In this document: one piece after another, positions 13,803 to 35,115 of the stretch
Position numbering within the stretch: the first letter of the stretch is position 1
Layout of the letters: the number at the start of each line of letters is the position of its first letter
Assembly: GCF_019649055.1 (NCBI RefSeq)
Contig: NW_026570549.1
Coordinates: 1 to 47,305, forward strand
Source of the DNA: Paramacrobiotus metropolitanus
Taxonomy: Eukaryota > Tardigrada > Eutardigrada > Parachela > Macrobiotidae
Direction of reading: 5' to 3'
Length of the DNA stretch: 47,305 nt
Translations under genes and position numbers: made by a program
Notes under the pieces: model-generated
Seen by the model: the letters and a program-made list of their open reading frames with translations, nothing else
Told to the model about the DNA's origin: nothing
Database searches by the model: none

Positions 13803-14757
13803 TACCTGTACGGCCGCTCGAGCGGGCACCTATAGTAAGTGAATGGGAGATGGTCGTTCTAAGAAACCTAAGAAAACCGAAGTCCCATCGAACACAATTA
13901 AATGTTAGATTTCACAAACCGAATTCCTTAATTTCCTTTCGGTTCTTTTGCAGTACGTGATTCAGTAGATCACAGCCTATACAGAAAACTTGAATTTATA
14001 AAAAAGCTCAAAACGTTTTTGTCAAATCGGATTGTAAAAGAAAACAGCGACGAAACACTTGCAGCCAAGCCACCCGAGCCACTGCACTACACGATGATAT
14101 CTACAGCCACTGCCACACATGCGCGGCTGAGCCAAACTGCCAAACATACACACATTCGCATATCAAAAGAAAAAAACCTTAACACTTAAAATCAACCACA
14201 GTTCAGTACGCACAAGCAAAAAAGAAATATCACCGGTTAGTAAGCACAGGTTACAATTCAAAACCACCATTTGCGACAAAAGGCGAAGAATAAAAAAAAA
14301 TTCTTCACAAGCCGAGAGAAAACGCTTTTCATTTTGAGATGGTTTTTTAACATTCAGAAACCCACAGAGATTAATTTGGATAAATCATAAATCATTCAAA
14401 ATCAACTGAGTGGAATTTGAATACTTAGTTTCGAGCAGCCACATAAGCAGTGGCTACAGTCGTTATGGTGTAGTGCAGTGGCTCGGGTGGCGTGGCTTAA
14501 ACGTTTCGTCACTGTTTTTTTAATAATGCGATTACAAGAAAACGTTTAGAGCGTTTTTGTAAATTTCAAGCACTATACTTTGAACAGGTTGTGATCTACT
14601 AAATCACGTAATGCAAAACACTGGAAGGAATTCAGTTACTGGAATAAGTGGAATTTAACATTTAATTCTGCCTACTTGCACGGCCACCTTCCATTCACTT
14701 ACTATAGGTAATAGGTGCCCAGTGTGCCCACTCGAGTGACCGTACGAGTAGCTCTTC
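13803..14757. mobile_element. Foldback element, ~320-bp arms
   Basis: Sequence at 13803-14130 reappears inverted at about 14440-14757: CACCTATAGTAAGTGAATGG, TACGTGATTCAGTAGATCAC and CACCCGAGCCACTGCACTAC all have near-matching inverted partners. The ~310-bp loop between the arms has no recognisable gene. Arms differ by many substitutions and small gaps, so the structure is old. It lies directly inside the terminal repeat and minisatellite at 12953-13605. Confidence 0.75.
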
Positions 14758-14904
14758 GAAACTGCAAACGCTCCGGGCTTTCCTGAACCATTGCCAAGGA
14801 CTCCTCGTAAGTTAACTACACAAAAAATACCCGGACATCCTACCAGTTTCTGTCAAATGGGAAGTGAAATTTCACCTGCAGCACTTGGAGTATCCTCCAT
14901 GGAA

Positions 14905-15560
14905 AGGATTATGGAACGTCTGGTCGGAGCCAAGTTCCACGACTACTTCTCCGTTTTTTTCGTGCTCAACTACTTAATCTTTCCCAGAAAATTTCTTGAA
15001 ACACAGCCATACCAGTAAGAAGACGTATCTTTCGTTGAATCATAAAATGACAACATTTCCGTGATAGCTTACCTCGCGGCGTTTACGAACGATGCAGTAA
15101 CAGTAGATCTTTCGTCAAATAATACAGTAGTAGTAAATCATTACCGTCAAACAAGGACTTTTTTAGGATATTAGCAACTTCAGTTTACGGGCCAAGCACT
15201 TTTTTCTTACCAAAACGGATTGCAGATTCAGAATCAGCACATTTTTCTGACTTAGAAAACACTTTCTGACTGCCGGCCCCCCAGCGCCCCAGTGTGTCGT
15301 TATGACCCTTTCCACTTTTGGAAAGTGTTCTAAGTCAGAAAAATGTGCTGATTCTGAATCTGCAATCCGTTTTGGTAAGAAAAAAGTGCTTGGCCCGTAA
15401 ACTGAAGCTGCTAATATCCTAAAAAAGTCCTTGCCGTCAAATAAGTTCAAAGTCTTATTAGAATTAACTGAGAATACCGTATTCTGTCAAAGCATTCGTC
15501 AGAGCTTTCCGTAATCTCCATGAACCAACCTTGGCAGTGGCGCTTAGCCAGGGCTTCTCG
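14905..15560. repeat. Dispersed repeat A, copy 3
   Basis: Resembles 1065-1480: CTGGTCGGAGCC, TTTTTTCGTGCTC, GAAACACAGCCATACCAGTAAG, TTTCCGTGATAGC, GATCTTTCG, and, after an insertion, CCATGAACCAACCTTGGC. The match is interrupted only by the hAT-type MITE at 15152-15433, so that insertion is younger than the family's spread. Confidence 0.6.
15152..15433. mobile_element. hAT-type MITE, nearly full-length hairpin
   Basis: A 282-bp element starts CAAGGACTTTTTTAGGATAT and ends with its reverse complement. Arms of about 115 bp are almost identical (one clear mismatch) around a ~50-bp GC-rich centre. The 8-bp duplication CCGTCAAA flanks it (15144-15151 and 15434-15441). The length of the duplication and the terminal CAAGG point to the hAT superfamily. 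The near-perfect arms would give a double-stranded RNA hairpin if transcribed. Confidence 0.85.
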
Positions 15561-15948
15561 GCTAATATACAGCATATAAAAGAACTTTATGTTATATAGT
15601 ACATTCCGAATTACAAATACTGAATGTGCATCACTCACCTCGGCAATGATTCCCACCCGGCACACGCCCAGCAGTCACCGCGGCTCTGGCCTGTGTGCGC
15701 GATATTCTACCCAAACCGGATGTCCAGAACACCTTCCCGCGCAAACTATAAACGCTCAGATATTTCCGACTGGCATCCAGGTCAGATACTGGGATATTCC
15801 CGCAGATACATAACAATAACGCTGTGCGATAAAAAAACGCAATACACAATCCGTTGCGGGGAATGCGCCGTGCAACGGTATTCACAGGGGACCTCGACCC
15901 CCTCATACATTAAGGGAAATCTTGTTTCCGCCGCACAGCTGCCGCTTA

Positions 15949-16112
15949 GGCCTTGTCCCGAATTCAAAGCGAATCTCGCTATGGTACGGTTGCTCAACCG
16001 CACGAGGTGGCTGTATGCAGTGGCCACGCCTACAGATACGGTACGCGAAGCCACCTCGCGAGGTGGAGTTGCTGTATCGCAACGAGATTCGCTTTGAATT
16101 CGGGACGAGGCC
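15949..16112. mobile_element. Tourist/Harbinger-type MITE, TSD TTA
   Basis: Ends begin GGCCTTGTCCCGAATTCAAA and are matched by an inverted copy at the right end, with similarity extending about 60 bp inward. TTA flanks both sides (15946-15948, 16113-16115). A TTA duplication and GG..CC termini are typical of PIF/Harbinger MITEs. Its ends differ from those of the autonomous-type element at 33841-37629, so that element is not its obvious source. Confidence 0.8.
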
Positions 16113-16115
16113 TTA

Positions 16116-16809
16116 GTCGATTTAGGCTTAAGTTGTATGTTTAACCCTGAACATTCAAAATATAAAAAGGATATCCAATTACTGCATAATCATATGCATA
16201 TAGAAAAAATTATACACTCATGTAATAGTCTGTTAAAATTAATACAAGGTCTTGTGAAATTAGTTACGACTTAGGCGGCCGGCGGTCAAATACTGCAGAG
16301 TGCAGACAGAACTTCAGAGTTTCATGGTAACTGCGGACGCTCATACCATCACTGCCACATTTTTCGCAGTTTAGAATGCACGTAATTGAGGAAAATGAAT
16401 GCATACCGAAATGCCAATGAAGAACTCTACAGCCAATACTTGTAGTCAGTAGTGGTGGACATTCCCGGGACATTACTGCATGTACCATCCATGCCGCAAA
16501 TGGTGGCGTTCTCTCGCACTCGTTTAAAGTTGAATGGTTTCCGATGCTTTCTGCAACTGCAAGAACGCACCTGATTTTACTAAACATTCGAGGACGTTTT
16601 TATTTTCATGCCGGAGTAAAAAAAGCGAAGCCTTCAATAAATTAAGTGTCCTTACCAACACGAGCATCTTGCACAGAAGTATACTTGTGTCTTGTAAATT
16701 GTAGCCAATAGGGCATTAGCATCGGTACAAGTAACTTTCCGGTAAACATTTGCCTGGTAGACATGGATTAAATCACTTAAATACAAATTCCAAATCATAT
16801 TAGGTTCTC
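16116..16809. other. Intergenic; dispersed repeat C near 16520-16600
   Basis: A piece around 16530-16600 (GAATGGTTTCCGATGCTTTC, then GCAAGAACGCA and AAACATTCGAGGACG) resembles 20850-20930 (GAATGGTCTCTAATGCTTTC and AAACGTTCGAGGATG), so it is another dispersed family. Nothing else is recognised. The 3' end of the EGF gene may extend into the right edge. Confidence 0.4.
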
Positions 16810-19345
16810 CCGCAACTTTTCAGTTTTGAACTTTTTCAATTTTTAACTTCGGGTTGCGAAACAAGAATGCAGAACATCTTGTCATACTAATGCATATTCC
16901 TTTTGTAAGGTCATTTTCCATCCCGTCTGGAATACAACTTTTGCCGAAATCATGACGTAAAGCTTTTATTTCCACTGCTTTAAAATTAACACCCATACCA
17001 CATTGACGCAATGGTGGACTGCCTTCAATACCCGGACGGCATACGCAGGTGATTTTGAAAGCTGAAGCCACCACTTGGACATTGCAGACTGCAGTCAGCT
17101 TTTTGACCGCAGTCTCGAATGACCACACACGGCGGCGGGGCAACTGGTCACAAGCGCATCAGAATAATTATGTTAAGTACTTCTATAATGTTGGCAGAAT
17201 TTGTGGACAAATACTCACTGCATGCCACTGCACATGTGCAAACCGGCCCATCAATACTGTCAGCACATGTAGGCTCCACGGTTCACACCTGACATATTCA
17301 CAAGTGTTCGAACCTAAAGATGCACTCAATTACTGCTAGCACTTCTACAGATGGAATCAGTGTGACCTGACATTTAGCTTCCGACACATCTGGCACATCT
17401 TCCATCGATTCAGTCAAAATTAGTTGGACAGGTGCATCGATAGTTTCCCGGTGAGTTGACGCTGTACTACCGCCTGGACAAAGGTCACACAGGAATTCCA
17501 CGCATTCATTTCGGTCTTTGCAAAATTTCTGATCGAAGAAGAAAAATCCTTTGGGACATACACAAGAATACGAGCCTTCGGAGTTTACGTAGTTCCCGGT
17601 AACACAAGGATATGTGGAAGCCGCACACTCGTCAACGTCTACCAAAAACAGCAAAGTGATAACACCAAAACGAAATGGAGCAGCGTTATGCCCGATTATA
17701 CCTATGCACTGACCGTTGACGAATATATACCCAGCCAGACAGTCACAAATATACGATCCCGGTGATTTTCATTTCATTTCGTTTTCGTTTGTTTTCTTAC
17801 CGACACAGCCTCCCAGTGTATTATTGTAACTGGGTGGACAAGAGCATTCGTATAGGCCTTCTCCGGGTGAGCATGGTGGATCTGGAACAGCACACTCGTT
17901 GACATCTAACAACATCAAAGTTTGCATAAATTTCTGAGTCATACAGCAAGCAGAGCAAGCGGCGTACTAACACAATGTCCCGCTGCGGTATCAAATTGGA
18001 AAACTTTAGGACATTTGCAGGAATAGCTTCCCTTGGTGTTAACACAGTATCCGACCAAACAGGGATTGTACAGCACGCATTCATCGATGTCCAAGCACTT
18101 CGGAGGGTAACCAATCTTCTGCCAGCCTCTTGGACACTGGCAGTCGTAGGAGCCGTCAGTCATGGGACTCGTGGCAGTGCAATCTCCGGCTTCGCCACAC
18201 GGGTGTTTATTGCTTTAGCAGACACTAACGTGCAGATAGCAAACGCCAACTTTCAAAAAAACAACCAGCTAAGAATTTGAATGCAGTTGTGTTACCTATG
18301 CAGGCACCGTTGCCTTGATCACGGAAACCCGGTGCGCACTCGCAGCGCATCATCTGTTTATCCGGCGCAGAAATGCAACGCGAATTGGGACCACATCCCG
18401 CTTTTTCACAACCAGTGGATACAATTACCATTAAATATGTGATAATTATCTCGTTTTGTTTGTTATCATTATGTAGTCACGTACAGTCTTATTCAACCCT
18501 TCATAATTCACATTATCTTATAATTCTGCTTAAGCTTTGTTTTTTCAACAACACACCGCCCGTTAATTGTCTGGTAACCTTTGAGACAGTTGCAAATATA
18601 CGATTCAGGACGGTCCATACACGTTCTAGAGTAGGAGTACAGGGATTCATCGCGCATTCGTTGATTTCTATGAGGGAAACAAAAACAGAAAATTGTGTCG
18701 CTTCGAAATTTATGGAAATTGTGGATTTACCGTAAATTAAGCTTCACCAAACCAACTTACCAACACAGGCAGATCCGCGCACCGCCTGATATCCGACAGG
18801 ACAGTAGCATTGGGATGACGATCCAGGCTTCTCGTCCACGAGACACGCACACACCACAGATACCGGCAGATGACACTGGCGCACAGCCACACAGCTTCCA
18901 GGCGTGGATTGGAAACCCTTCGGACAGCGGCACTGATAGCTTCCCACGCTGTTAATGCATATCCCCGGGGAACACAGAGTTGGTGACTCAGCGCGCTCGC
19001 TGACATCTTCACACCGATTATTCCGATTATTTATGTATTCAAAGCTCTTTGGACACAGCAGACATGTGTATTTTGTAGCCTCCAACCATATCCTCCTGGC
19101 AAGTGCCGATCGTACAAGGATCGTACATGCACTGGTTGATTTCTGAAAATATGTAATTGCTGATTAAAGCCAATCTGCGGTCGAAGTATAAGCTGGCACT
19201 GATGGTGAACGAAAGCACTAACTTATACATTCCTGTCCGGCCATAAGATCATAATTGGCCGGAGACACGCAGGCGAAACTGTCCGGCAAGTTGACACATT
19301 GGCCTGGTTCGCATGGATTAGTCTTGGTCATGCACTCGTAGATAT
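16810..19345 (-). CDS. EGF-repeat extracellular protein, multi-exon
   Basis: Successive exons encode EGF modules, most calcium-binding (D-x-N/D-E-C starts). Exons I can delimit: 19223-19345 (IYECMTKTNPCEPGQC), 18761-19142 (INQCMYDPC, then GICINSVGSYQCRCPKGF and a third module), about 18552-18667 (INECAMNPC), 18296 to ~18414 (GPNSRC..CECAPGF), 17968-18212 (CLDIDEC..NTKGSYSCKCP), 17801-17905 (DVNECAVPDPPC), 17702-17763 (half a module, GSYICDCLAGY) and ~17380-17638 (DVDEC, DRNEC). Further cysteine-rich stretches at 17215-17290 and 16830-17110 may continue it. Intron phase is mostly 1, as is usual for EGF exons. Single-base frame breaks occur near 19080, 18630, the 18296/18212 junction and 17465, plus a TGA near 17407. 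No signal peptide or start was found. The family resembles fibrillin/fibulin-like matrix proteins; exact identity is open. Confidence 0.75.
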
Positions 19346-19841
19346 CTGGTCATATACATATTCATGATTAACAATTACTAACAACAGTAACAACTAATTA
19401 AAAATTAATATTTAAAGGGCAGATTCAGTTTATGGTGTCTGGAAAATTCAAGCATGTAGAAATCCAGTTGCTAACTATTAAAACAGCGTTTAACTTTGTC
19501 CGAACGATATCATGATGCATAACAAGCAGTTAATTTTAACTGTACCGTAGTTTATAGATGCATTTTTTGCAACTACAGTACATATCAGCAAAATGGCATA
19601 GAACGGTGGTGTTACGATCTGAATTTGGTGGTTTAATCCTTAATGTTAAGAATTTCCATGCCAAGCGTAACAAGTGAAATTTCCATCGGTTTCGCAAAAC
19701 AGCGAAAACATATACAGAACATTCCTCGATATCTGCAACGAAAGCGTTGTAGACGTACTGATTGGTTTGGTATTATAATAACAATAATGCACATTGTGTA
19801 ACGCAAAGATACCGCGGTGTGCGGCAAAAGTAATTACATAC

Positions 19842-20345
19842 CTCAAACGACTCAACCGCTGCTATAGTCAAGCCGTCCACGTAAGGACCCAAAATGTTGT
19901 GTTCCCGTACACACAAACTCTGAATGGTTCTACAAAAGTCGTACGACATGAGTAACACAATGCATAAGGACAATAAATCTGTGGACAAGGTAATATAATG
20001 AAGTAAGCCTTATGGTTAGCCTTTGCATCAAACAAAATTCAGATATTACTTCAACATCTCGAACTAAGCAGATCATAGACCTTCTCGTTGTAGATTTCGA
20101 TGAACGATATTCCACTTTGAACAGTACCTTTTTTCGAACATAATTCTCCACTCGCAGAAATAAATTATTACATAACCGCGGGACTATACCCGGCTGTTCT
20201 AGTGAGCCCATCATCGTGTAGGACTTCCCGGAACCTACAAATATTCAAGGCGAACTTGAAGCGACAGCCGTGATCATGTACTTCTTTGCTGAATAACTGC
20301 TACACACACCGGTATGTCCATATGCGAAGATGCAGGCATTACGAA
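19842..20345 (-). pseudogene. Kinesin motor-domain fragment (kinesin-3-like)
   Basis: Three exons give consecutive motor pieces. 20310 to ~20345 reads NACIFAYGHTG. ~20056-20234 joins in phase to complete the P-loop (GHTGSGKSYTMMG), then PGIVPRLCNNLF and, after a one-base shift near 20110, SFIEIYNEKVYDLLSS. 19842-19919 reads VREHNILGPYVDGL then AVESFE. The order and wording match the kinesin motor from the P-loop to just before switch I, closest to kinesin-3 types. GQTG is GHTG here. The upstream motor start and the downstream SSRSH and LAGSE regions are not found. The 5' edge coincides with the end of a SINE-like repeat and the EGF gene follows at once, so this looks like a stranded fragment rather than a working gene. 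Confidence 0.75.
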
Positions 20346-20640
20346 GACTCAGACATTCCCGTATCTTTCCAACGCCAGTTGGTTTTTTGTGCATAATGCG
20401 CAGTAGATAACGACGGGTAACGTGTGTCATCACGATCCGGAGCTTATCTGCGCTCCGAATGGTCAAAACAACTATACCGCACGTATTCAAGATACCGCGC
20501 TGCACAGCTCCGTTTTCTAACATACCCGTCCTTATCTCTATGAATCATAACTTATGCACCATAGTGCGCTGCACTGACCGTATACCAGCCAACACAGAAA
20601 AGATGTCTGACTTTTCGAATTGTATCCTTGAAAGGCATTC
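20345..20640 (-). mobile_element. SINE-like repeat, minus copy
   Basis: Matches the reverse complement of about 40440-40695: ATCTCTATGAATCATAAC, AGATGTCTGACTTTTCG, CTGCGCTCCGAATGGTC, and GCGTTGG followed by AAGATAC (minus strand) are all shared. The plus copy carries tRNA-like promoter words (see 40378-40700). The minus copy ends at ~20345, exactly where recognisable kinesin sequence begins. Confidence 0.6.
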
Positions 20641-20659
20641 TCCAAAACACGGCTTTCCA

Positions 20660-22740
20660 CTGCATTGTACACATCTTCCCGATCTGCAGCGGTCAAATCC
20701 ATCATACATCCGCAGCGGTGAATTACGAAATGTTAAAACAGTTAGAGCGCCAATTTTTCCTTACCCGCATAAATGGATTTGCGGAAGTCGTGTCGTTTTA
20801 AGCGTCGTCGAATCGTCGTGACGGCATGACCAGAAACAGTGATCAAAGGTGAATGGTCTCTAATGCTTTCTGCAAGAACGCATCTACAGATACATTAACT
20901 AAACGTTCGAGGATGCTATTTTTTAAGCAGAACAACAATGTGCAGTTTTTCCAGCCATCAAAGTACTATGTATTCTTAACTCTAGATTTATTGTCGGCCT
21001 ACTGATGTTATTTTCAAAATTGATATATCAACATTACTGGTACCAGATCACGGTAAGAAGAGCACGAACATGAGAATCCACGCTGCGTGCGGCATCTGGT
21101 TTAATTTTTTTAATCACTGTGTTTATTTTGCAGGCTGCAGACTCATTTGTAGAAGAAATCAAGGCTCCAGATTAGCCGTGAATACACACTAATGCCTAAG
21201 CAAAAACCAACCATATATGCAACTAACGAAAAACCGAGACGCGAGCGAAGTAGTGATTCAAATCCCTAATAAAAAGGAGAGGCCAAGTGCATCAGACGAA
21301 TGTGTGATGCTTTTTATAGCGACCATTAAAATTCGCCCAGCTTCACAAAAACAGCGGCCGCTGACCAATGGTAATCGACTACTGTACTTACGGAGAACTA
21401 CAGTACTTCTCCGGTTTTTTCGTGTAGTCCTAGTCCAACTAATTTGTCCTTCAAAAATTTTTTAAAAAAATTTGAAACGCAACTATCCAAGTCAGAAAAC
21501 GTATTTTCCGTTCGAATGAATACAATAAAGGGAAGACCAAAGAAGAATGGGCTTATGAGGCGCAGTACTGCAGGCTGTTATGAAATTTCTAGTATACGGT
21601 AACCAAGAAGAAAGCAAGAATTAGTACAGTAGCTTATATTTGATATACGAATACACAAGTACCTGTAAAGTTGTTAAAAACCTCTCAAAATAAAGCAGAT
21701 CTATTACTAGTATCTATCCACAGTTTGAGTGCCGAGCGCGATGCTGTTGTTAAAAATATTACTCACGGGTTGAAATGGAATCCAGTTCAGCCGACGGCGG
21801 ACACGCTATGCCCACGCTACACTTCTAACTGCATTGCGAAACTTCAAAGTTCAAAATCATTAAGGCAAAAAATCGCATATCTCGCTGCATCAAGCAAGAC
21901 CGTACCTTTTGACTCGCTCGTCCTTTGAACAAGGGTTCCCGAGTGGCATACGAGTGGACTTACTATGTTGGCATTCGTTTTCCTCGGATCCTAATTGCGG
22001 AAAATGACAAACTTGGATCAATGATAAAAGCAAAACCAAGACACGATTTTATACACAGATTCATGCTTAGCTTTCATCTCGTACAGCAGGTCGATGGGAA
22101 CCTCGCTTCCGGTTCGCTAGAAAACTTAGCTGTACCAGTTCGCTTTGGATGTGCGGTCAAAATCGAATTAGTAATGCTACGTGTAAAATTTCACTGATTT
22201 CACTAACCAGCGGAGCGCATAACTGTTCGGCACTTTGGCATACTCGTGGAGTCGGGCATTTGCCAGTTGACGATGTAGTCGACTGCAATGACAGCCACGC
22301 GGGTGTCCCGCGATCGCAGCGCCACAGTTGCAGTATAACACTCTCTTTGTAACATTCAACTCTTTATAGCCTTACATACGCTTTCCACGAAACTGAATGC
22401 AGTTTTATCAGTGTAGAGTTTGTAAAAGTGTCAGTGTCGAAATTCTGCTAAACTTGCTTGAGTTAGATACAGTTGCACACAGTATTACAGAGTCTGTAAG
22501 CCAGATGCAGTAAGATGCAATCATAACCTCGCCAAATTAATACTGTGATAACGAGCAACGTGGACTATTTAACGTTTACGTATTTAATTTACATATCTAC
22601 CTAATTACACTGCATTAACTAATTCATAGTTGTAATGCATCGCAGTTCAAAGCAGTGCCAGAAAATGAATTCATACTTTAGTAATTAATTGTGCTGCGTA
22701 ATTAATTAAGGTGAAGGCTCCGCATACAACCTTTATACCA
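20660..22740. other. Intergenic with repeat fragments
   Basis: Contains a second piece of dispersed repeat C (20850-20930) and a piece of repeat A (21375-21560). The remaining frames (for example 21671-21928 and 21925-22197 on plus) have no motif I recognise. The missing C-terminal exons of the peroxidase, which would carry a GGLSE..WYEN block, were looked for on the minus strand and not seen. Confidence 0.4.
21375..21560. repeat. Dispersed repeat A, copy 4 (fragment)
   Basis: CCGGTTTTTTCGTGTAGT, TTGAAACGCAACTATCCAAG and AAGTCAGAAAACGTA resemble 1095-1190 and 14960-15030. Only the middle of the family is kept. Confidence 0.5.
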
Positions 22741-23057: not shown

Positions 23058-23550
23058 GCCGACGATAGAATTACCAATCCGGGATTTGATTATTTTCATA
23101 TCCGCTATAGACGCGGCATTGTACTCGTACGAAGCCCAGCGTGCTGATATGGATGTAGCTGCGAAAGCTAATCATTCAACTACTACAGATATTAAAATTT
23201 AATAAAAATGGATAGACACTTAAGTAATAAATAAATAGTGGTAAGCAACAACTGATAGTGAGGGTTTGTAATAGGCGAATACCAAACTGTAAGTACACAT
23301 ATAATATTAAAATGGGCAATTTCGACTTATAACAACAGTTCTACTTCGCGGCTCGCAGGCTGACTTCTCTACTGTGATTAATACACTAAAATATATTGTA
23401 CTAGTGTCAGTGTCGAAATTATTTTACGGATTATGTGAATTGAATATAAAGCAAGAAGGGTATGAAGATGAACTGCGAATTTAGAGCGTAGTTTCTCTAT
23501 GGCTGTACTAATAGAGAAATATGTAATAATTACATAATATTATGTTAATC

Positions 23551-23620
23551 TGCTCATAGCCTGGTGGTAATACGTTCGGCTTTTGAACTGTATAGCCTGG
23601 GTTCGATTCGCAGATGAGTA
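23551..23620 (+). tRNA. tRNA-like unit, probably pseudogene
   Basis: The 70-nt unit has fully pairing ends (TGCTCAT with ATGAGTA, one G-U), an A-box-like TAGCCTGGTGGTAA and a B-box GGGTTCGATTCG. An anticodon stem GTTC/GAAC encloses GGCTTTT, which lacks the usual T33, so I give no anticodon. The T-stem has one mismatch. It may be a degenerate tRNA or SINE head. It resembles the unit at 5742 only in the promoter boxes. Confidence 0.4.
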
Positions 23621-24110
23621 ACTTTTATCTCATAAAATCAAACCAAAAAAAAGTATTGTGGTATCAAAATACCAAAAATAAATTCCAAATAGCCTTAAAA
23701 GTCTCCCTAGTGGAGTTTGGCTACTGTTGGTTCGATAATAATAATAATAATAATGGCGGATTGCATAACTGCTTAACGTTGAATATTACGCCCAAAAAAG
23801 AGCAACATCAAAATCACTTTTGCATTTGTTAATGAATTACCGGCAATCGCCATGACATGTTGCTAACAAAGCGAAAGTGTCACCTACCGCAACTGTTGTC
23901 ATTAGCACAGTCGTTAATCATATACCTCGGAAGTAGCCTTGGGCCAGCCATCAACAGTCGCTGCTGTTGATGGCTTCCGAAAGTAAACTCTTCCCATTCT
24001 CAAAATCAGTCATCCATAACTCATAAGCGACCTTCAAATCGCGCACACGTTAAAATATGTATAGTTTAAAAAAACTATGGCACCTACAAAATACTGAATA
24101 CCCAATGTAC
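23621..24110. other. Non-coding stretch 3' of the peroxidase exons
   Basis: Contains an (AAT)n microsatellite at about 23737-23756 and a small hairpin, GCCATCAACAG with CTGTTGATGGC, near 23955-23983. No peroxidase exon, poly(A) signal I would trust, or other gene is visible. Confidence 0.4.
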
Positions 24111-27100
24111 AGGTGAATGTCATCCACATGCTTGTAGACTTTTTTAAGCGCCTCCACAATTTCGTCCGGAATGTATGTAGTCAAATCACTGAAATCGGCT
24201 GCACGCGTCAAATTACAGTATTCGCGAAATTCATTGTATCCCGGGAGACCGCGATCCCGACCGCGCATTATGTTGATGGCCACCAGATCCTGTCCGCTGA
24301 ATTTTCTACTGCGGTCTTCGAACAAATGATCCGTCAGAGCTTTTGTCACAACAGAGTCCATGTTTTGCATCGGCTCCACAATTAAACCAATGAGCAACTG
24401 ATCGATTCCCAAATCCTCGTACAAGATGTCTCCGCGGGCAAAGTGCTCCATTAACTTCACCCGGCTGCGGTTGCCGGCGATAAAATTGTTGTCATACCGG
24501 CCGAATTCACTTGCACCAGCGTGTGTCCGAAACGGAACGCCGCGGCGGAAAACTCATTGACCAGCCTTGCGTCACAGTTTGGATCGTAGTTCGTGTAATA
24601 ACTGGAACGTCGGGATCGTAGATCGACTGCTTGAGTCAGTGCTTCGCCTAATATGCGTGGGAAGTACTCATTGAAGCTGATATGCTGCAGCACGGCAATC
24701 AGGATACGACGCGGTTCTTGAAACAATTGTTCGTCTTTCCAGTGACTGTTCACCCGTTTCAGCTCGGTGGCGATTTGGTTACGCAAACGCATCTGAAAGC
24801 ATTTCATTTATGGTAGAACGCTAAAGAATGCATAAAAGCATTAAAAGATTGTATGGAACACCGCTGATCGATAGAACAGCACATGCAACTTCCTCGTATT
24901 GCAGCTACAGTAAAATCTGTGAGATTGAACATCTGCGAATATTGAACAGGGCTCTACATTGAACGCCTGGCTAGGAACCGGCGCGCCTCGTTGACTATAA
25001 CACAGGGGGGCCACTGCGAACAGTGAACATCTGTGTAAAGTGAACATTGAACGCTTTACTCGGAACCGTACTAATTAAATCGCTCTGTTCAATGTGAACA
25101 AAGGTGCAAAATCCGGGTCCGGCGTGAGAATGAAAATGACATCACAAGAAAAACTTTAGCCAATTATTGGTTTAAATGCACATTTGACCATTTGTTAACT
25201 AAAATCTGGCTTTAATCTTACCGGTTAGTGTTGCCGTATCATTTTCGTGCGACCTCAAGATGAAACGAACATTTTGTATTCTAAAAATGGTTTTCGCATT
25301 TTTGGCGCTCTTTCTAACACCAAATTTACGAAAAGCCCGATCGCTGGGTCAAGAGATACGATAAGTCACAAAAAGTCAAAACGGCAACTCTGTTTAATCT
25401 GCAGTCTTCCCTTATCCAGCTACACAGTTGACTTGTCTTGGTCGCTCTAGAACATTCTCATATCCGAAAATGACACTCGAATGCCAAAAGTTGAGCTTAC
25501 CATAAAGCAAAGCCAAAACTTTGAACTAATTATATAACACAGCAAAACCTACATGTACTTGCTAAATGAACAGTACAATACGGGGCGCCCCACGTAGTTA
25601 CCCCGAGGGGCCCCCCAGGGGCAGTTACTGCGAATATCGAACACTCTTCTACATTGAACGCTTTTGATGGAACCACAGGTGTTCAATGTACATAGATTTT
25701 ACTGTAGTAGCTGCCACAGGCCTAACGTAATATTATCCATAAAAACCACCTCCTTGCAGATGACCTTCGCCTTGTTTATCGAATGCGACAAACCATTTTC
25801 ATGCGTTTGTCCACCCCACCTACCCATATGGTATGAGAAACAGTCAATCCAGGACTTTCGTTTTCGCGCGTATCTCCAGCCAAGAAGATTTCCAGGAACC
25901 GAATTAAGACATTCGATGAATTCTATATCAGTTGAGTCGATTGTGGTTGGCAGAAGATCTTTCAGACCGGCATTGGGGTTCTTTGTAGAATTCAGCTTGC
26001 CTGCATTTCCGAACCACAGCTACAAAGCGTGCATGATGCAAATCCGAAAACAAATTTACAGGTTACCGTCAACAAACGTCCGCAGACGTTGGGTCTTGCA
26101 GAGAGTGCTGCCGTACACCATACTGGCGTCCACATATGCCGTGTTCTGGTTCACCTGCTCCCGCGCTCCAAACGATGTGCGGCCGGTTGCGGAGCGGATA
26201 AAAGCCAAGCAGCGACGCTCCGTAGTATTGCTGATAAAAGGGGTCATACTTGAATCCGCCAGTGGAATCGGGATAGGCCGACAATTCGCACTGGTCATCT
26301 CCTGTGCGTTGCATGATCGACAGTTAAAATTGAACCCATTCAAAGCAGTTGCGATGGGCGTTAGTGTCATATCGTGATCCACAAACTGGCCATACTGCAT
26401 GAACATGTGCTGAAATAAAAAACAAAAACGGTATTAACAATGGCAGTACTTCAGCTGTACCGTGCACGCATAATGCAATCCTGCTCTAAGCATCTTTATT
26501 GTTATAGAATTTACAGTAAGTGCATCGAAGCTGGAATGTACGACAAGATCGGAGGGCACGGTGCTGCTGGTCTGTCGTCGGTGCATATTAATTAATCAGG
26601 CTATTCCAGTGAATGGAATACTGCTAAAATTTTAATAAGTGCATGTTTCAGTTTAAAAGTCGAAAAACAAAGTCGGGGGTGCGGCTTACGTGAATTCAAG
26701 ACTTCGATACGAAATAATTATCGTAGGGATCTTTTTTGTAAGAAAGCTTCACTCAAGCTTTTTGTAAGCAAGCTTCACTCAAGCTTTTTGTAAGCAAGCT
26801 TTGTAAGAAAGCGTTGGGTTTATACTTCACTCTTTTTTGTGAACTTCTACAAATTCTTCTGCAAGATTTCAAGTTATCATGATGCCTTAACTTTGTGCCA
26901 GATTGACGAATGTTAAAACACGCGACGTAGGTTGTGCATGAGCTAAAGCCAAATTATTGCTTAATGCTTATTACCTGTAACGAGGATGCGGCCGATCCAC
27001 ATCCTCTACGACTCCCAGTTGGACCTCCCGGGTGGACGGCAGAGGCACGCCTGTGACGCTCATGTTGCGAGGTTCGTCGACACCGTCAGCAAAGGCGGGA

Positions 27101-29830
27101 TCGAGCAGACGGCCGAATATCCTCTCCGATGATCCTCTTTCGGGGTGCTGGAGATTGTTACACCAACCCGAAATGCTGCGGTACCTACTGGTGTGATCGC
27201 ACGGGACGAAGCGTTCGGCGCATGTTAAGTATATTTTCCGTTGGTCCATCCAGTTTGGGTTTAATCAGTCCGTCAAAGCGCTTCAGCTTGGACATAACAC
27301 TTGACATATTGGTAATTGGAGGGTGTCCGGTTGACGAATTGGCGTTTAAGTATATGTTTGGTGCCCTGGATGAAGGCGTTGGACTCGAGATTCATGGCTC
27401 GGACGGCGGCCGTCGGGCTGTTGAATGCGGTACGAATGCGGCCGGATTGGCTGCCTTGAGCCTGTGCTCGGGCAAGATCAGCTAAGGCAGTGACGGTGAC
27501 TTCTTCGCGGGCCTTTTCCAAGATGTTCATCAAGATATCGGGTGAGATTTCGGGATCCGCAGGTATTGCTGTACCAGGAAAATTTTAAACTGATCACATT
27601 TGTTGGATTACATTTTCAGATATTTCGAAATCTCAAAACTTACCTGCTTTCCACAAGCTGAGATCTAAGGAAGCAGAAAATGGCGACCGACAAGGCATTG
27701 CCGCGTTCCTGTGACGAAATACAAGGAATACATTGGTACTTACTGCATTTAATGGCATCGCAATGTACTGTGTGTTGACTTATAGCAGCAAGTCAATGGT
27801 TTCTCGTAACTTTAGTACGGATAGCTGTACAGGGTAAGCGCCGCTCATTTTCTTTGTTAGTTTTTCTTCAGAAACAATCACGAAGATTGCTGCACTTAGT
27901 TTATTGCTCATAACCTTTGCTCAAAAGCATTTTTATTAGAAGTCGTCTAATCACAATGTAAGTTATCGTGATATGCCTGTCTTTTTCCACTGAAAAATTG
28001 TAGGAATTACGAGTTTCGGTTGCTTCCAGATTTCACTTACAGTAACGAATCTGGCAGCAGCATAACGTGAGGTTGAATAGACGGAATATTGTCGCCATTC
28101 TCACATAAAATTCTTGCCAAGGTTGTATTCGTATCTCCGTCAGCTGTTCTGTCAACAAAGAATACGTAATTAATGCCGAAACCCTTGATCGTAGTTTATC
28201 GTATGCATGTGCAACAAGGGGACATACCTGGCGTAAAACGGGTTTCCGGAAGATCATTTTCATACCAATATCGATCGCCCACTCTCAGATTACGATACTT
28301 TTTTGCAATAATACAGGAAAACACCGGCCCGACTAATGCCCCTGGCTCATGAATTTCGGATAGCCCTCCAGTGAAGAGGTCAATATCATGGACGGTACTG
28401 TGTAAACGAATAGAACTCATGAATGAATGATAGTAATGCCCTAGTTATGAAATTATCAGTGTCCTGAACAATACGGCAGTTAATGCGCATTATAACAAGC
28501 AGCAAATGGCTGACCACAGCGACCTTCGATCAGTTTTCAGTTCAAAGGAAGCGAGCTAGTGCGTGGTAGCGTGTTACGGCTGAAAACATGTGTACAACTG
28601 TACGCGGGACGATTCCCTTAAGCTGGAAGTGGTCGAAATTGGTTGCGGTCAGCTCATAGTGATTTGGCAGAATGCTAAAAGCCCAATGCAAATCATGATA
28701 GTATCCAGCGATTGACTTATTTAGTGTCAAAGCACTGCCGATAATTGAGGAGTATCGCACTTATGAATCCAGTTATATGGGTTTGCGTTGATCAGCCGAA
28801 GCTTTAGTTTATGCAAGAAGCAAGCAAAATTATTTAAAAAGCAAATCAGAACCACTAAAAAGACAATTCAAGATACAAAATACTGAAATTAATGGTGGTG
28901 AAACTATGTAAGATTTACTTACAGCAGGGGCGTCATAGAGGGGGTGTCTACCGGCAATTTTTCGGAGTTTGACTCCCCTTGTTTTTCAAAACCGATTGCC
29001 CCCGTCAAAATTTAGAAGAGAACAGACAGAGTAATATTGAAGAGAGCAGACAGAATATGTTTTTCAAAACCGATTGCCCCCCTTCAAATTTTGCCCCCCT
29101 GTCAAAATTGGACACCCCCCTTTTGCCGAACCTGTGACGCCCCTGACTTACAGTACATGTCATACTCGTACCTGTAAACAGCCGACAATATTTTAATATT
29201 GCTTTCACTGACGGAGTCTCTGAGATCGTCGAATGAAGTGGCCATCTTCAGACCGCACACACTCCGCCAGAAATCGTAGCTAGATAATCCATGATCCCGA
29301 CCACGCTGAAATTGTGTACAATAATACAGTTTTGTGTGGTTTTCAGTTTTCCTTTTGTATGCAACAATCAAGATACCTGAATAGTGAGAGCCGCCAAATC
29401 CAGCTTTTGTCCAACGTTGGCGGCCGGATCGTCCGCGATTCGTAGCCATCCGCTGTTGGTCAGCGCAGAGGTTATTGACTGGTCTCCCGGTCTAGCTGGT
29501 TGATCAGCAATGCCCCGAATAGTTCCATCCAGCACGCCCGAAAAATACACCTGTGATAGAAAATTAAAGGTGATTATTTTAAGTTTAAGCCCGCATATTT
29601 TAAAGCTCAAGCACATTGTAATGCTGGCATACTCTGTAGCAGGATACAGGCGTACGTAATAATAATTCTTACATCATAAGGTTGAAACCATTGGGTGTTA
29701 AACGGCTTGAAATTAACACGACCTCGTCTGTCGATAAACTGGGTACCATTTGCCATTAACGAATACCAGAACTTGGAAGCTGCAGTGGCAAACTCGTTCG
29801 TAATCCCAGGGTGTACGGCCGCGGAATAGC
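24111..29830 (-). CDS. Two-domain animal haem peroxidase (partial)
   Basis: Ten exons: 29673-29830, 29377-29550, 29172-29305, 28228-28397, 28041-28148, 27644-27708, 26975-27568, 26067-26409, 25824-26000, 24111-24792. The first six give the C-terminal half of domain A (GITNEFATAASKFWYSL, GRDHGLSSYDFW, DIDLFTGGLSEIHEPGALVG, GDRYWYEN, LARILCENGDNI, SLDLSLWK). The exon ending SLDLSLWK has a GTAAGT donor and joins in phase to domain B: YRSISGWCNNLQ, QYGQFVDHD (distal Gln, Asp, His), LAGDTRENESPGL (catalytic Arg, haem-ester Glu), AAFRFGHTLV (proximal His), GRDRGLPGYNEF, ending VDDIHL at a donor. Domain B thus keeps the residues expected for catalysis; domain A has Tyr (FWYS) where the proximal His should be. 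Domain A's N-terminal half and domain B's C-terminal exons were not found. Single-base frame breaks lie near 28127, 27290, 27262, the 26975/26409 junction, 25885 and 24497. No start or signal peptide seen. Intron MITEs at 24908 and 28925. Confidence 0.85.
24908..25704. mobile_element. pogo-type non-autonomous element in an intron
   Basis: Ends CAGTAAAATCTGTGAG and its inverted partner (CAGTAAAATCTATGTA read from the right) are each flanked by TA. CAGTAAAA-type termini with a TA duplication are typical of pogo/Tigger elements. Subterminal sequence on both sides repeats TTGAACGC, TTGAACA and related words in both orientations. No transposase frame is present in the ~800 bp. It sits between the exons at 24111-24792 and 25824-26000 of the peroxidase gene. 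Confidence 0.75.
26732..26812. repeat. 26-bp tandem repeat in a peroxidase intron
   Basis: About three copies of CTTCACTCAAGCTTTTTGTA plus AGCAAG run head to tail, the middle ones identical. It lies in the intron between the exons at 26067-26409 and 26975-27568. Confidence 0.75.
28925..29145. mobile_element. hAT-type MITE, TSD ACTTACAG, in an intron
   Basis: Starts CAGGGGCGTCA and ends TGACGCCCCTG. The 8-bp repeat ACTTACAG flanks it at 28917-28924 and 29146-29153. The interior duplicates the phrase TTTTTCAAAACCGATTGCCC and contains runs of C. It inserted about 20 bp inside the intron following the peroxidase exon 29172-29305, just downstream of its donor site. Confidence 0.85.
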
Positions 29831-30950
29831 CTGAAAATGTACACTCCTTGCACCATGGTGGAGTATAGAAATGGTTACACAACTCCTGATATGAAGGCCG
29901 GATTTTTAATACGCAGGCAACAGAGTTCGAGGTGGTAAACCTGTTAAACAGCACAGTATATTCTGACGAAACCGGTTCTCCCTCGATCTGATTACTTGTA
30001 CCGTTTGTGGGCATCTGTCGGCGCATCCCAGAGAAGGCAAAACGCAGTAACCACTTTTTACAAATTTTTAATAAATATCAGTTTCAGGATTTGAAAAGTT
30101 AGCACTGATGATTTTTCATAAAATCCGCAAGGTAAACATTTTCAAGCAACCTCGATGCGTTTCTTCGTTCGTCATCAGCCCTCCCGAAAACGGGTAAAAC
30201 AAGAGAGCAGGTCCTACTCTCAGAGGTCACGCGCCAGCTGCTTTTTGTACTGGTGATCTATCGCAACAAGTAACAAAATTGGAGTACACTGCCCACAAAC
30301 TGCAAGCGATTAAATATAGCTCAGCGTCTTAACGTTTTCGAAAACAATCTAGAGACCAAACTGGTTTAGAAGAAGTAAAATTTAGAGTAATAATTCTAAC
30401 TTCATATCCTACAGTACTTATGTTTTGTTGTTCTGTTTATGTAGCTATTGGGATACAGCACAAATTTCTAACTCTTTGCTTTGGTCCTGGCATTAGCAAT
30501 TTAAGCATTGATTGCAAACCAAACGGTTAAAATAACCTCGCGCACACCACTAAAACTTGACGCTTACCTATTTCAGTATGTGTAGCCTACGAGGAAGCAA
30601 ATGGCTAAGCATTTTGTTGCTGTTGTGCACGAGAAAGCAAATTAGCTGTTCATAAACAGCCACAGGTTTAGTATCAAAAGTTTAAAATTTTTTCTACACC
30701 TTTTGATATGCAACTAGTATAGCTGCACTTTGATATTCACGGAGCGCAGGCGTCTGAAAGTAGTGGTGGCGTGTCGTTGCGAGGTTATTTTGAACCGCGG
30801 ACCGACAGTTCAACCTCTTTTGTCGTACATTGTACCGGGTGGGCGGTTTGGGCATCAGACGCACTGAACGACTAGCTTCGGCATTCCTTGCCTCGGTCAA
30901 TTCGGTTCGCTCGCTGGTGCCACATATGACAGACCTGTACAGCGAAGCAT
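29831..30950. other. Upstream of peroxidase exons; no exon recognised
   Basis: The minus frame runs open from 29830 to about 30026 but its sequence does not match the peroxidase family and a good acceptor (TTTTCAG) lies at 29831, so I treat this as intron. The expected upstream exons of domain A (distal His block, GDxRxNE block, REHNR block) are not visible here or further upstream on the minus strand. Confidence 0.4.
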
Positions 30951-31800
30951 ATGCGACATGTGCGGAACAAGCTTGGAAATCAATGGGGCCGCGAACTCCC
31001 TGATGAAAATTTTCGTGCTTCGCAGCGTGCTTGGGACATCCCGGTCGTCCTTTACCAGAAAAAGAAGCAGTATTACGTCAAACGGATTCCGTTAACCAAA
31101 AGCCGGCTGCTAGCTGTGTCTCAGCCTGAGTCTGGGTTGTGGCTAAATGCAGTCCCAGTGGCGAGCCTCGGCACTACGTTGTCGAATACCAGTAAGGATA
31201 TCCATTGCGCAACGCATCGGCGCCCCAGTATGCGTTGAACGCGGTGCAAAATGCGGCAGCACTGTTGACAAATGGGATATCACGGGTTGGGATGCAAGCA
31301 CCTGAAAGCGAAAATTTCCCGTCATAACGAAATCAGAGATGTGATCCACCGCGCCTGTGGGTCAGCCAGTATCCCTTCCGTTCTCGAGCCACAGGCCTTT
31401 ACCGCGATACCCAGAAAGGCCAGATGGCATGACCTCAGTTCCCTTCAGTCAAGGAAATCCTGGGTGTGGGATGTCACCTGCACGGATACCATGGCCACCA
31501 GCTACATCATAGAAGACATCCCAGGAAGCCGGCGCTGCCGCCACCATGGCGGAGGCAAAGAGAAAACCACAAAGCACGGATATTTACGCGATAATTTCAA
31601 TTTCTCTGCTTTGGTTTTGAAACAATGGGTGTGTGGGGTAAAGAATCGAAATGTAAGATGTCTATACTCGGTAAGATGCTTTTTGAGAGGACACAGGAGA
31701 AACGATCCACTCAGTTTCTGAAGCAGAGAATCAGTGTTGCTTTAATGCGAGGTAATGCTGCTTGTGTTCAGGAAACGTTATGTATCGGTAAGAGACTGGA
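30951..31800 (+). pseudogene. Retroelement-like C-terminal coding remnant
   Basis: Across shifting frames the plus strand gives, in order: ESGLWLNAVPVASLGT, RISIAQRIGAPVC, SRHNEIRDVIHRAC, SIPSVLEPQ, ERPDGMT, KSWVWDVTCTDTMATSYI, then QRISVALMRGNAACV. This chain (sgaWLnAlP, LRLG, RH..iN, lEP, RPDg, WDvTc.DT, QRisvAlqRGNA) is the conserved C-terminal module found behind reverse-transcriptase-like regions in many invertebrate retroelements. The frame changes at least at ~31190, ~31275, ~31415, ~31450 and ~31620, so it is not translatable as read. No RT motif was found upstream. Assignment to a clade is not possible here. Confidence 0.6.
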
Positions 31801-33894: not shown

Positions 33895-34048
33895 GCACTA
33901 GATGCGACGGGAAGCAAACACCGGTCACATTTGAGCTTGCGCAAAGCAAATGCTGTAGCTGGTAGGCTTTGAATTTTCTGCTGTATCAGTACACTACATT
34001 TGCGAAGCTATTGAATATTGCAAAATATTCATCTTAGAATATTGCAAA

Positions 34049-35115
34049 ATGAATAGACATTTAGAAGATTTATACCTATGTGATGCGATCGACGATGAAG
34101 AATTTCTCTTTCTTTCTGAACCGAATCGGCCGGTGTGGAATATCGAGCGAAAAACTAATTTTCGCCTTAATTCTTTCACTGATGATGAATGTATTGCGAA
34201 TTTCCGATTCAGCTTTCTGGATATTTATCGTTTAAAGACAGCTCTTTCCGTACCAGATATTGTTTATCTGGATAACAGGTCTGTTGTAAGCGGGATCGAA
34301 TGTTTATGTGTTCTACTGCGACGACTGGCCATTAAGGGACGCCTGATTGAAGTGTGCAATATATTTGGAAAACCAGAAAGCGCAATCAGCAGAATTTTTA
34401 CGTGGTGTGTTAATCATATATACGATACTTTTGTGGCCCGGTTGCTGCATACTTTTGTGTCTCCTTATCAAACTGAAGCGTTTTTCAAAGATTTGTGCCA
34501 GAAAAATGTTGAAAAAGGATGTCTATTCGATAACTGTATTGGATATCTGGACGGAACCCTGATTGAAGTTTGTCGCCCTCAAGGACCAGATGAAATTCAG
34601 AGACAGTTCTTTTCATACAAGAAATATCATGCCCTGAAGTTTCAATCCTTGCAAGCTCCGAATGGTTTGATTCTACAGTTTGATGGCCCGTGTCGGAAAA
34701 TTACACGACAGTACGGTATTTCGAAGAAGTCTCCTTGCTGATCGTATCCAGGACTTGAACAACAAATATGATATTGCTGCGGATAATCGCTTTATGGTGT
34801 ACGCTGACAGTGCCTATGCGAAAAGCCTGTACGTCATGCCGGTTTACAAAAACACAACAGTCGGCTCATGGCAAGCAAAATGAACGACGAAATGAAACCT
34901 CTTCGGATCTGTGTTGAATGGGGATTTAAAAAGTTAAACAGCTTTTTCGGTTTATAACAGACAGAGATAATATGAAAGTTTTTCTTACGCAGCCAGGTAA
35001 ATATGTTCCTGTTGCAGTAATTCTAGCGAATGCCCATACTTGTTTATACGGCAGTCAGACCGGCGACTATTTTGACAGTCATCCGCCAACCCTGGAAGAG
35101 TATTTTTCTGTATAG
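34049..35115 (+). CDS. HARBI1-like transposase, frame-broken
   Basis: This is the nuclease that cuts and joins the element ends. Starting at the ATG at 34049, the N-terminal helix-turn-helix-like region (FRFSFLDIYRLKTAL) leads into CIGYLDGTLIEVCRP (first catalytic Asp), HALKFQSLQAPNG, then VGKLHDSTVFRRSLL (second Asp), MVYADSAYAKS, MKPLRICVEWGFKKLNSFF (catalytic Glu) and PVAVILANAHTCLYG near the end, stopping at 35115. Length of about 350 codons suits the family. Three single-base breaks separate these blocks: near 34692, 34880 (in an A run) and 34947. All three catalytic acids are present, so an unbroken version elsewhere in the genome could be active. Confidence 0.85.

Follow-up and report, generated by a model that had tools for sequence, protein, structure and literature searches.

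The window analysed here comprises contig C329 in full (47,305 bases), which belongs to a genome that was searched over 169.8 Mb in 533 contigs. Ten exons of an animal haem peroxidase gene lie on its minus strand, and the stretch 24101-29857 is colinear, introns included, with 888856-893694 of another contig, C5, at a DNA identity of 88-94% in five main blocks. Numbered after their counterparts in the C5 gene, the first six belong to a first peroxidase domain (A): exon 7 at 29673-29830, which has FWYSLM at the position of the proximal histidine, is 94.9% identical to C5 893666-893509 and is bounded by AG and GT sites; exon 8 at 29377-29550 (92.5%); exon 9 with the RGRDHG motif at 29172-29305 (98.5%); exon 10, reading DIDLFTGG ... 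WYEN, at 28228-28397 (95.9%); exon 11 at 28041-28148; and exon 12 at 27644-27708, where the domain ends with LDLSLW and a phase-1 GTAAGT donor leads toward a second domain (B). There follow exon 13 at 26975-27568, which encodes the linker and the N-terminus of domain B and has a Pfam match at 26974-27183, exon 14 at 26067-26409 with the distal histidine motif FVDHD (96.2%), exon 15 at 25824-26000 with the region of the distal arginine, and exon 16 at 24103-24792 with the proximal histidine in FGHTL (94.3%). Exons 7 to 16 were placed by alignment, with profile matches for exons 9, 10, 13, 14 and 16, and the window exons score above the Pfam curated cut-off for PF03098, the animal haem peroxidase superfamily.

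An earlier note on this DNA had described two peroxidase half-domains that are spliced in phase into one reading unit, and its junctions are found where it had placed them. On the minus strand, a GTAAGT donor closes exon 28148-28041, the middle exon 27708-27644 is preceded by CACAG and followed by GTAAGT, and TACAG precedes the next exon, which begins at 27568; the phases at the two junctions are 2 and then 1, the same as in the intact relative on C5. All ten acceptors of the window exons are AG and the nine donors before the break are GT. Profile matches also agree that exons 29830-28041 and 27708-27644 make up the C-terminal portion of an animal haem peroxidase domain, and that exons 27568-24103 supply the N-terminal and central portions of another. 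A phase match is weak evidence by itself, with a chance of about 1 in 3 per junction; two intact relatives make it convincing. The window junctions go back to a haem peroxidase gene that truly has two domains, and in that gene the junction in question is the ordinary phase-1 intron that links A to B, and the apparent half-domains are remnants after the loss of both gene ends. The claim of a single in-phase reading unit holds for the exon edges and phases and fails for the copy as such, which is frameshifted, truncated and rearranged.

Relative to C5, six frame-breaking indels are found in the window exons: -1 near 28127 in exon 11, +7 at 27313-27319, +4 at 27228-27231 and -1 at 26975 in exon 13, -5 near 25887 in exon 15, and -1 near 24510 in exon 16. 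When the exons are joined at the homologous boundaries, 13 stops result in 870 codons, and the frame is already lost at the A/B junction because the first indel sits in the exon just before it. At 24253, the RGRDHG motif carries a change from H to R. The N-terminal half of domain A and the end of domain B are missing, with no sequence from before exon 7 in place and with B stopping within exon 16 at 24103.

Displaced pieces of the same gene lie at both edges. Downstream of domain B, at 23359-24099 on the minus strand, there is a relic in four pieces that corresponds to C5 894550-895371 and consists of part of exon 5, the last 21 bases of exon 6 and parts of introns 4 and 6, all of domain A, while C5 894863-895222 is absent from it; it was placed by BLAST pieces and the C5 exon edges (a MAFFT alignment put its first part wrongly). 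Beside the upstream break at ~29857, BLAST matches and alignment place a relic of intron 6 of domain A (C5 893760-894309), in inverted orientation, at 29881-30384 on the plus strand, with 75% identity to C5 and 80% over the best part. The edge relics are 75-83% identical to C5 and thus less alike than the gene body, except for pieces at 90% and 97%, and therefore the rearrangement may have taken several steps. Along the window, the C5 segments come in the order 894550-895371, 888858-893694, and then 893760-894309 inverted, which corresponds to a single turn of a head-to-tail unit of 6.5 kb that is opened in intron 6 and has its last piece flipped. Such an order would result from a circle and also from a tandem duplication that had been trimmed on both its sides.

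The intron between exons 15 and 16 contains an interspersed element with 17-bp terminal inverted repeats (24905-25707, unstranded) that is absent there in C5; among the genome matches listed for it, 67 in number and mostly partial, one is near full length besides the window's own. Around the peroxidase copy there are further repeats, namely a multi-copy interspersed repeat of about 230 bp at 23524-23754, which by eye looks tRNA-like on the minus strand (SINE-like) although ARAGORN found no tRNA in the window, this repeat included, and multi-copy repeats at 30645-31600, upstream of the copy, that are at most 95% identical elsewhere. An open frame at 33959-34741 has a weak match to DDE_Tnp_4 (PF13359, E 0.001, under the cut-off), and we take it to be possibly a remnant of a Harbinger-type transposase. 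Pieces of a kinesin-like gene lie at 14500-22300 (PF00225, E 4e-8 for 19930-20244), with relatives on C5 at 1484-1488k, 1597-1608k and 2274k at 73-92% identity, which suggests that another duplicated stretch with relatives on C5 lies on the window contig. A lipocalin search of the genome gave two matches, and the one that was translated reads like an ordinary fatty-acid-binding protein.

The intact relative on C5 spans 888133-897791 and has 18 exons with an uninterrupted reading frame for 1565 amino acids plus stop; the 17 introns of this homology model have AG acceptors throughout, 16 GT donors and one GC donor. It comprises a hydrophobic start, a complete domain A, a junction intron of 77 bp in phase 1, a complete domain B and a Cys-rich tail. 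A second intact gene, on contig C42 at 733209-740921, has the same architecture in 24 exons and 1425 amino acids (homology model), and its junction includes one extra exon of 76 bases with the phases still compatible. Both models were built by eye from homology and splice consensus on genomic sequence alone. An alignment of the two proteins over 1403 positions shows 43% identity. Both have the Cys-rich tail, and of the 17 C5 introns 15, the one at the A/B junction included, have a C42 counterpart that agrees in column and phase. Pfam recognises two An_peroxidase stretches (PF03098) in each protein, and in both genes the two domains lie within one reading frame, which is not the case for the window copy. 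The reading of tandem domains, one of two that the earlier note had offered, is thereby borne out for the gene family by two single open reading frames, though not for the window copy itself. By eye, a hydrophobic, signal-peptide-like start precedes domain A in both proteins, and no second start of this kind was seen before domain B in the translated stretches of either gene. The C5 tail alone matches the VWC profile PF00093 weakly (E 0.038, under the Pfam cut-off), and with the joined C5 and C42 proteins no VWC row was obtained at E 0.1, a weak Fn1_2 row appearing for C42 instead.

Domains A and B of C5 share 230 of 670 aligned residues and two intron positions that agree in column and phase. 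A tree was computed from 22 rows, which are the four C5 and C42 domains, 17 further loci in the genome (joined tblastn pieces) and one myeloperoxidase. It groups C5 A with C42 A and B with B (100/99 in both cases), and therefore the two-domain form predates the split of C5 and C42. Of its 19 inner branches 9 are open, and two further rows are very long, which leaves the placement of A and B relative to the other peroxidases uncertain. Among the matches listed, with 81 of 122 candidates scored, each of the 17 other loci shows one domain's worth, and the pair at C10 2011-2022k reads as two separate genes. The C-terminal motif is recognisable by eye in seven of these 17, outside C5 888-897k and C42. 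A stop follows within seven codons at C10 2014k, C299 31k and C23, and the frame runs on past the motif at C20 97k, C3, C40 and C109 416k, so that the earlier expectation that domain A normally stops shortly after LDLSLW describes three of the seven loci and not the other four. The loci at C109 ~279k and C299 ~31k (L011 and L013) are nearly identical, with tree branch lengths of 0 and 0.026; lying on different contigs, they are perhaps a haplotig or a very recent duplication.

At the haem site, the two domains differ. Compared with myeloperoxidase, domain A of C5 has a tyrosine in the column of the proximal histidine and retains LDHD and GDRRVNE; these are lost as well in domain A of C42, which reads LEDD, lacks a GDxR motif and carries a leucine in the proximal column. 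Domain B of both proteins has DHD, AGDxRxNE and FGH. These residues are the catalytic ones in myeloperoxidase. A division of labour between a catalytic B and a non-catalytic A is likely, judging by these motifs.

The window copy and C5 differ by a dS of 0.197 and a dN of 0.0137 over 864 codons, a ratio of 0.069, and this ratio is alike in the two halves (0.066 for A, 0.071 for B). As A and B have been equally constrained, they were part of one gene until recently. If the copy had evolved neutrally since the duplication, about 180 non-synonymous changes would be expected (half of dS over 1992 sites) and only 27 are seen, on which ground an old pseudogene is rejected; from the low dN/dS of 0.07 against C5 it follows that the decay is recent, and on the assumption of an even clock at most about 14% of the branch of the window copy was neutral.

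It is thus very probable that an animal haem peroxidase gene with two domains was duplicated and that the window contains the resulting duplicate, which has recently decayed and is truncated and rearranged. That it is instead a working gene of this type, in which the frameshifts and breaks are errors of the assembly, is very unlikely, even if the low dN/dS and the intact splice sites would suit it. As the copy spent most of its history under constraint, assembly errors could indeed explain some of the indels, and the assembly was seemingly built from nanopore reads, as the Paramacrobiotus sp. TYO report describes nanopore reads with Illumina polishing for what seems to be the assembly used here (PMC8277472). 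Against this reading, both gene ends are absent, with displaced or inverted pieces of the gene's own introns and exons in their stead; indel lengths of 4, 5 and 7 bases are in our judgement untypical of homopolymer errors, the more so in an assembly polished with short reads, and the RGRDHG motif has a residue change.

Even less credence can be given to two separate tandem peroxidase genes with transcripts joined by read-through splicing, the other reading that had been offered for the junction. The halves could be old genes, seeing that the single-domain relative at C10 2014k stops soon after the equivalent motif (KENI, stop), but domain B of C5 and C42 has by eye neither a start nor a signal peptide of its own, the C5 junction intron measures only 77 bp, and A and B are still paired across the C5/C42 split. 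With the junction intron constant in position and phase and the domain pairing conserved in two paralogues, joined transcripts are not needed as an explanation, and this reading is rejected. An allelic haplotig of the C5 locus would explain the colinear match, introns included, and is the least plausible of the alternatives, as the flanks differ, and it is rejected on a dS of 0.2 together with the permuted order. The preferred reading of a decayed duplicate carries a caution for similar cases, since an in-phase junction may belong to a broken copy.

The working genes on C5 and C42 most likely encode one protein each, which their start would direct to secretion. Each protein would begin with a signal peptide, followed by a domain A with peroxidase fold, a domain B equipped for catalysis and a weakly VWC-like tail rich in cysteine; lacking the proximal haem histidine, domain A may have lost its enzymatic function and act as a pseudo-enzyme or regulatory domain, and catalysis would be left to domain B. 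The window copy probably stems from a sister of the C5 gene, 6.5 kb of which would have been joined end to end, from B exon 16 to A intron 4, and the joined unit would then have been opened in intron 6, with the outer parts lost and indels gathered afterwards, and the copy presumably yields no product. One possible but doubtful route is an excised circle of ~6.5 kb. It would have closed at B exon 16 and A intron 4, been opened within intron 6 of domain A and become part of another contig by insertion, leaving a permuted gene with pieces of domain A placed after domain B.

Two-domain peroxidases are known from insects and crustaceans. In insects they are termed DBLPX or DBLOX, examples being MpPxd14 and MpPxd23 of Myzus, where an N-terminal membrane segment accompanies the first domain and a VWC domain the second (PMC11673278), and the Anopheles DBLOX AGAP008350 takes part in making a haemocyte differentiation factor (PMC13043729). 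The salmon-louse protein LsPxtl-1 also has two peroxidase domains, with two-domain relatives in Tigriopus and Daphnia; its second domain has classical distal motifs and a proximal GHS motif and its first has deviating distal motifs, Prosite and InterPro disagree on which domain holds the haem site, and a low-confidence LDLRB repeat is placed at the C-terminus (PMC10579435). Animal peroxidases are reported to be expanded in tardigrades (PMC7730656), and a shallow literature check, which included parts of PMC7730656, PMC9145152 and PMC11313143, found no paper naming a two-domain peroxidase in this group; nor did the literature search find a phylogeny of DBLOX proteins, and the term DBLPX came up in a single paper. 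Two intact tardigrade double-peroxidase genes with shared introns and a deviating first domain would extend the architecture beyond arthropods, and would point to an origin before the arthropod lineage.

By architecture and motifs, the C5 and C42 proteins are probable members of this known double-peroxidase kind, and the window feature is a decayed copy of such a probable member. Like DBLPX and DBLOX, they have two animal peroxidase domains in one protein, but their N-terminus looks like a signal peptide where the Myzus proteins have a membrane segment, and the VWC match, seen in the C5 tail, is weak; the window copy differs from all of these in being broken. With LsPxtl-1 they share the two domains and the pattern of canonical haem motifs in the second and deviation in the first, though the first domain of LsPxtl-1 has GGxxAHD and RxxH, whereas that of C5 keeps LDHD and GDRRVNE and has its tyrosine at the proximal position. 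Both C5 domains also match PDB sequences of vertebrate myeloperoxidase and lactoperoxidase over nearly their full length (best E 1.1e-74 for A and 1e-90 for B), but these are single-domain enzymes, whereas the C5 protein combines two such domains.
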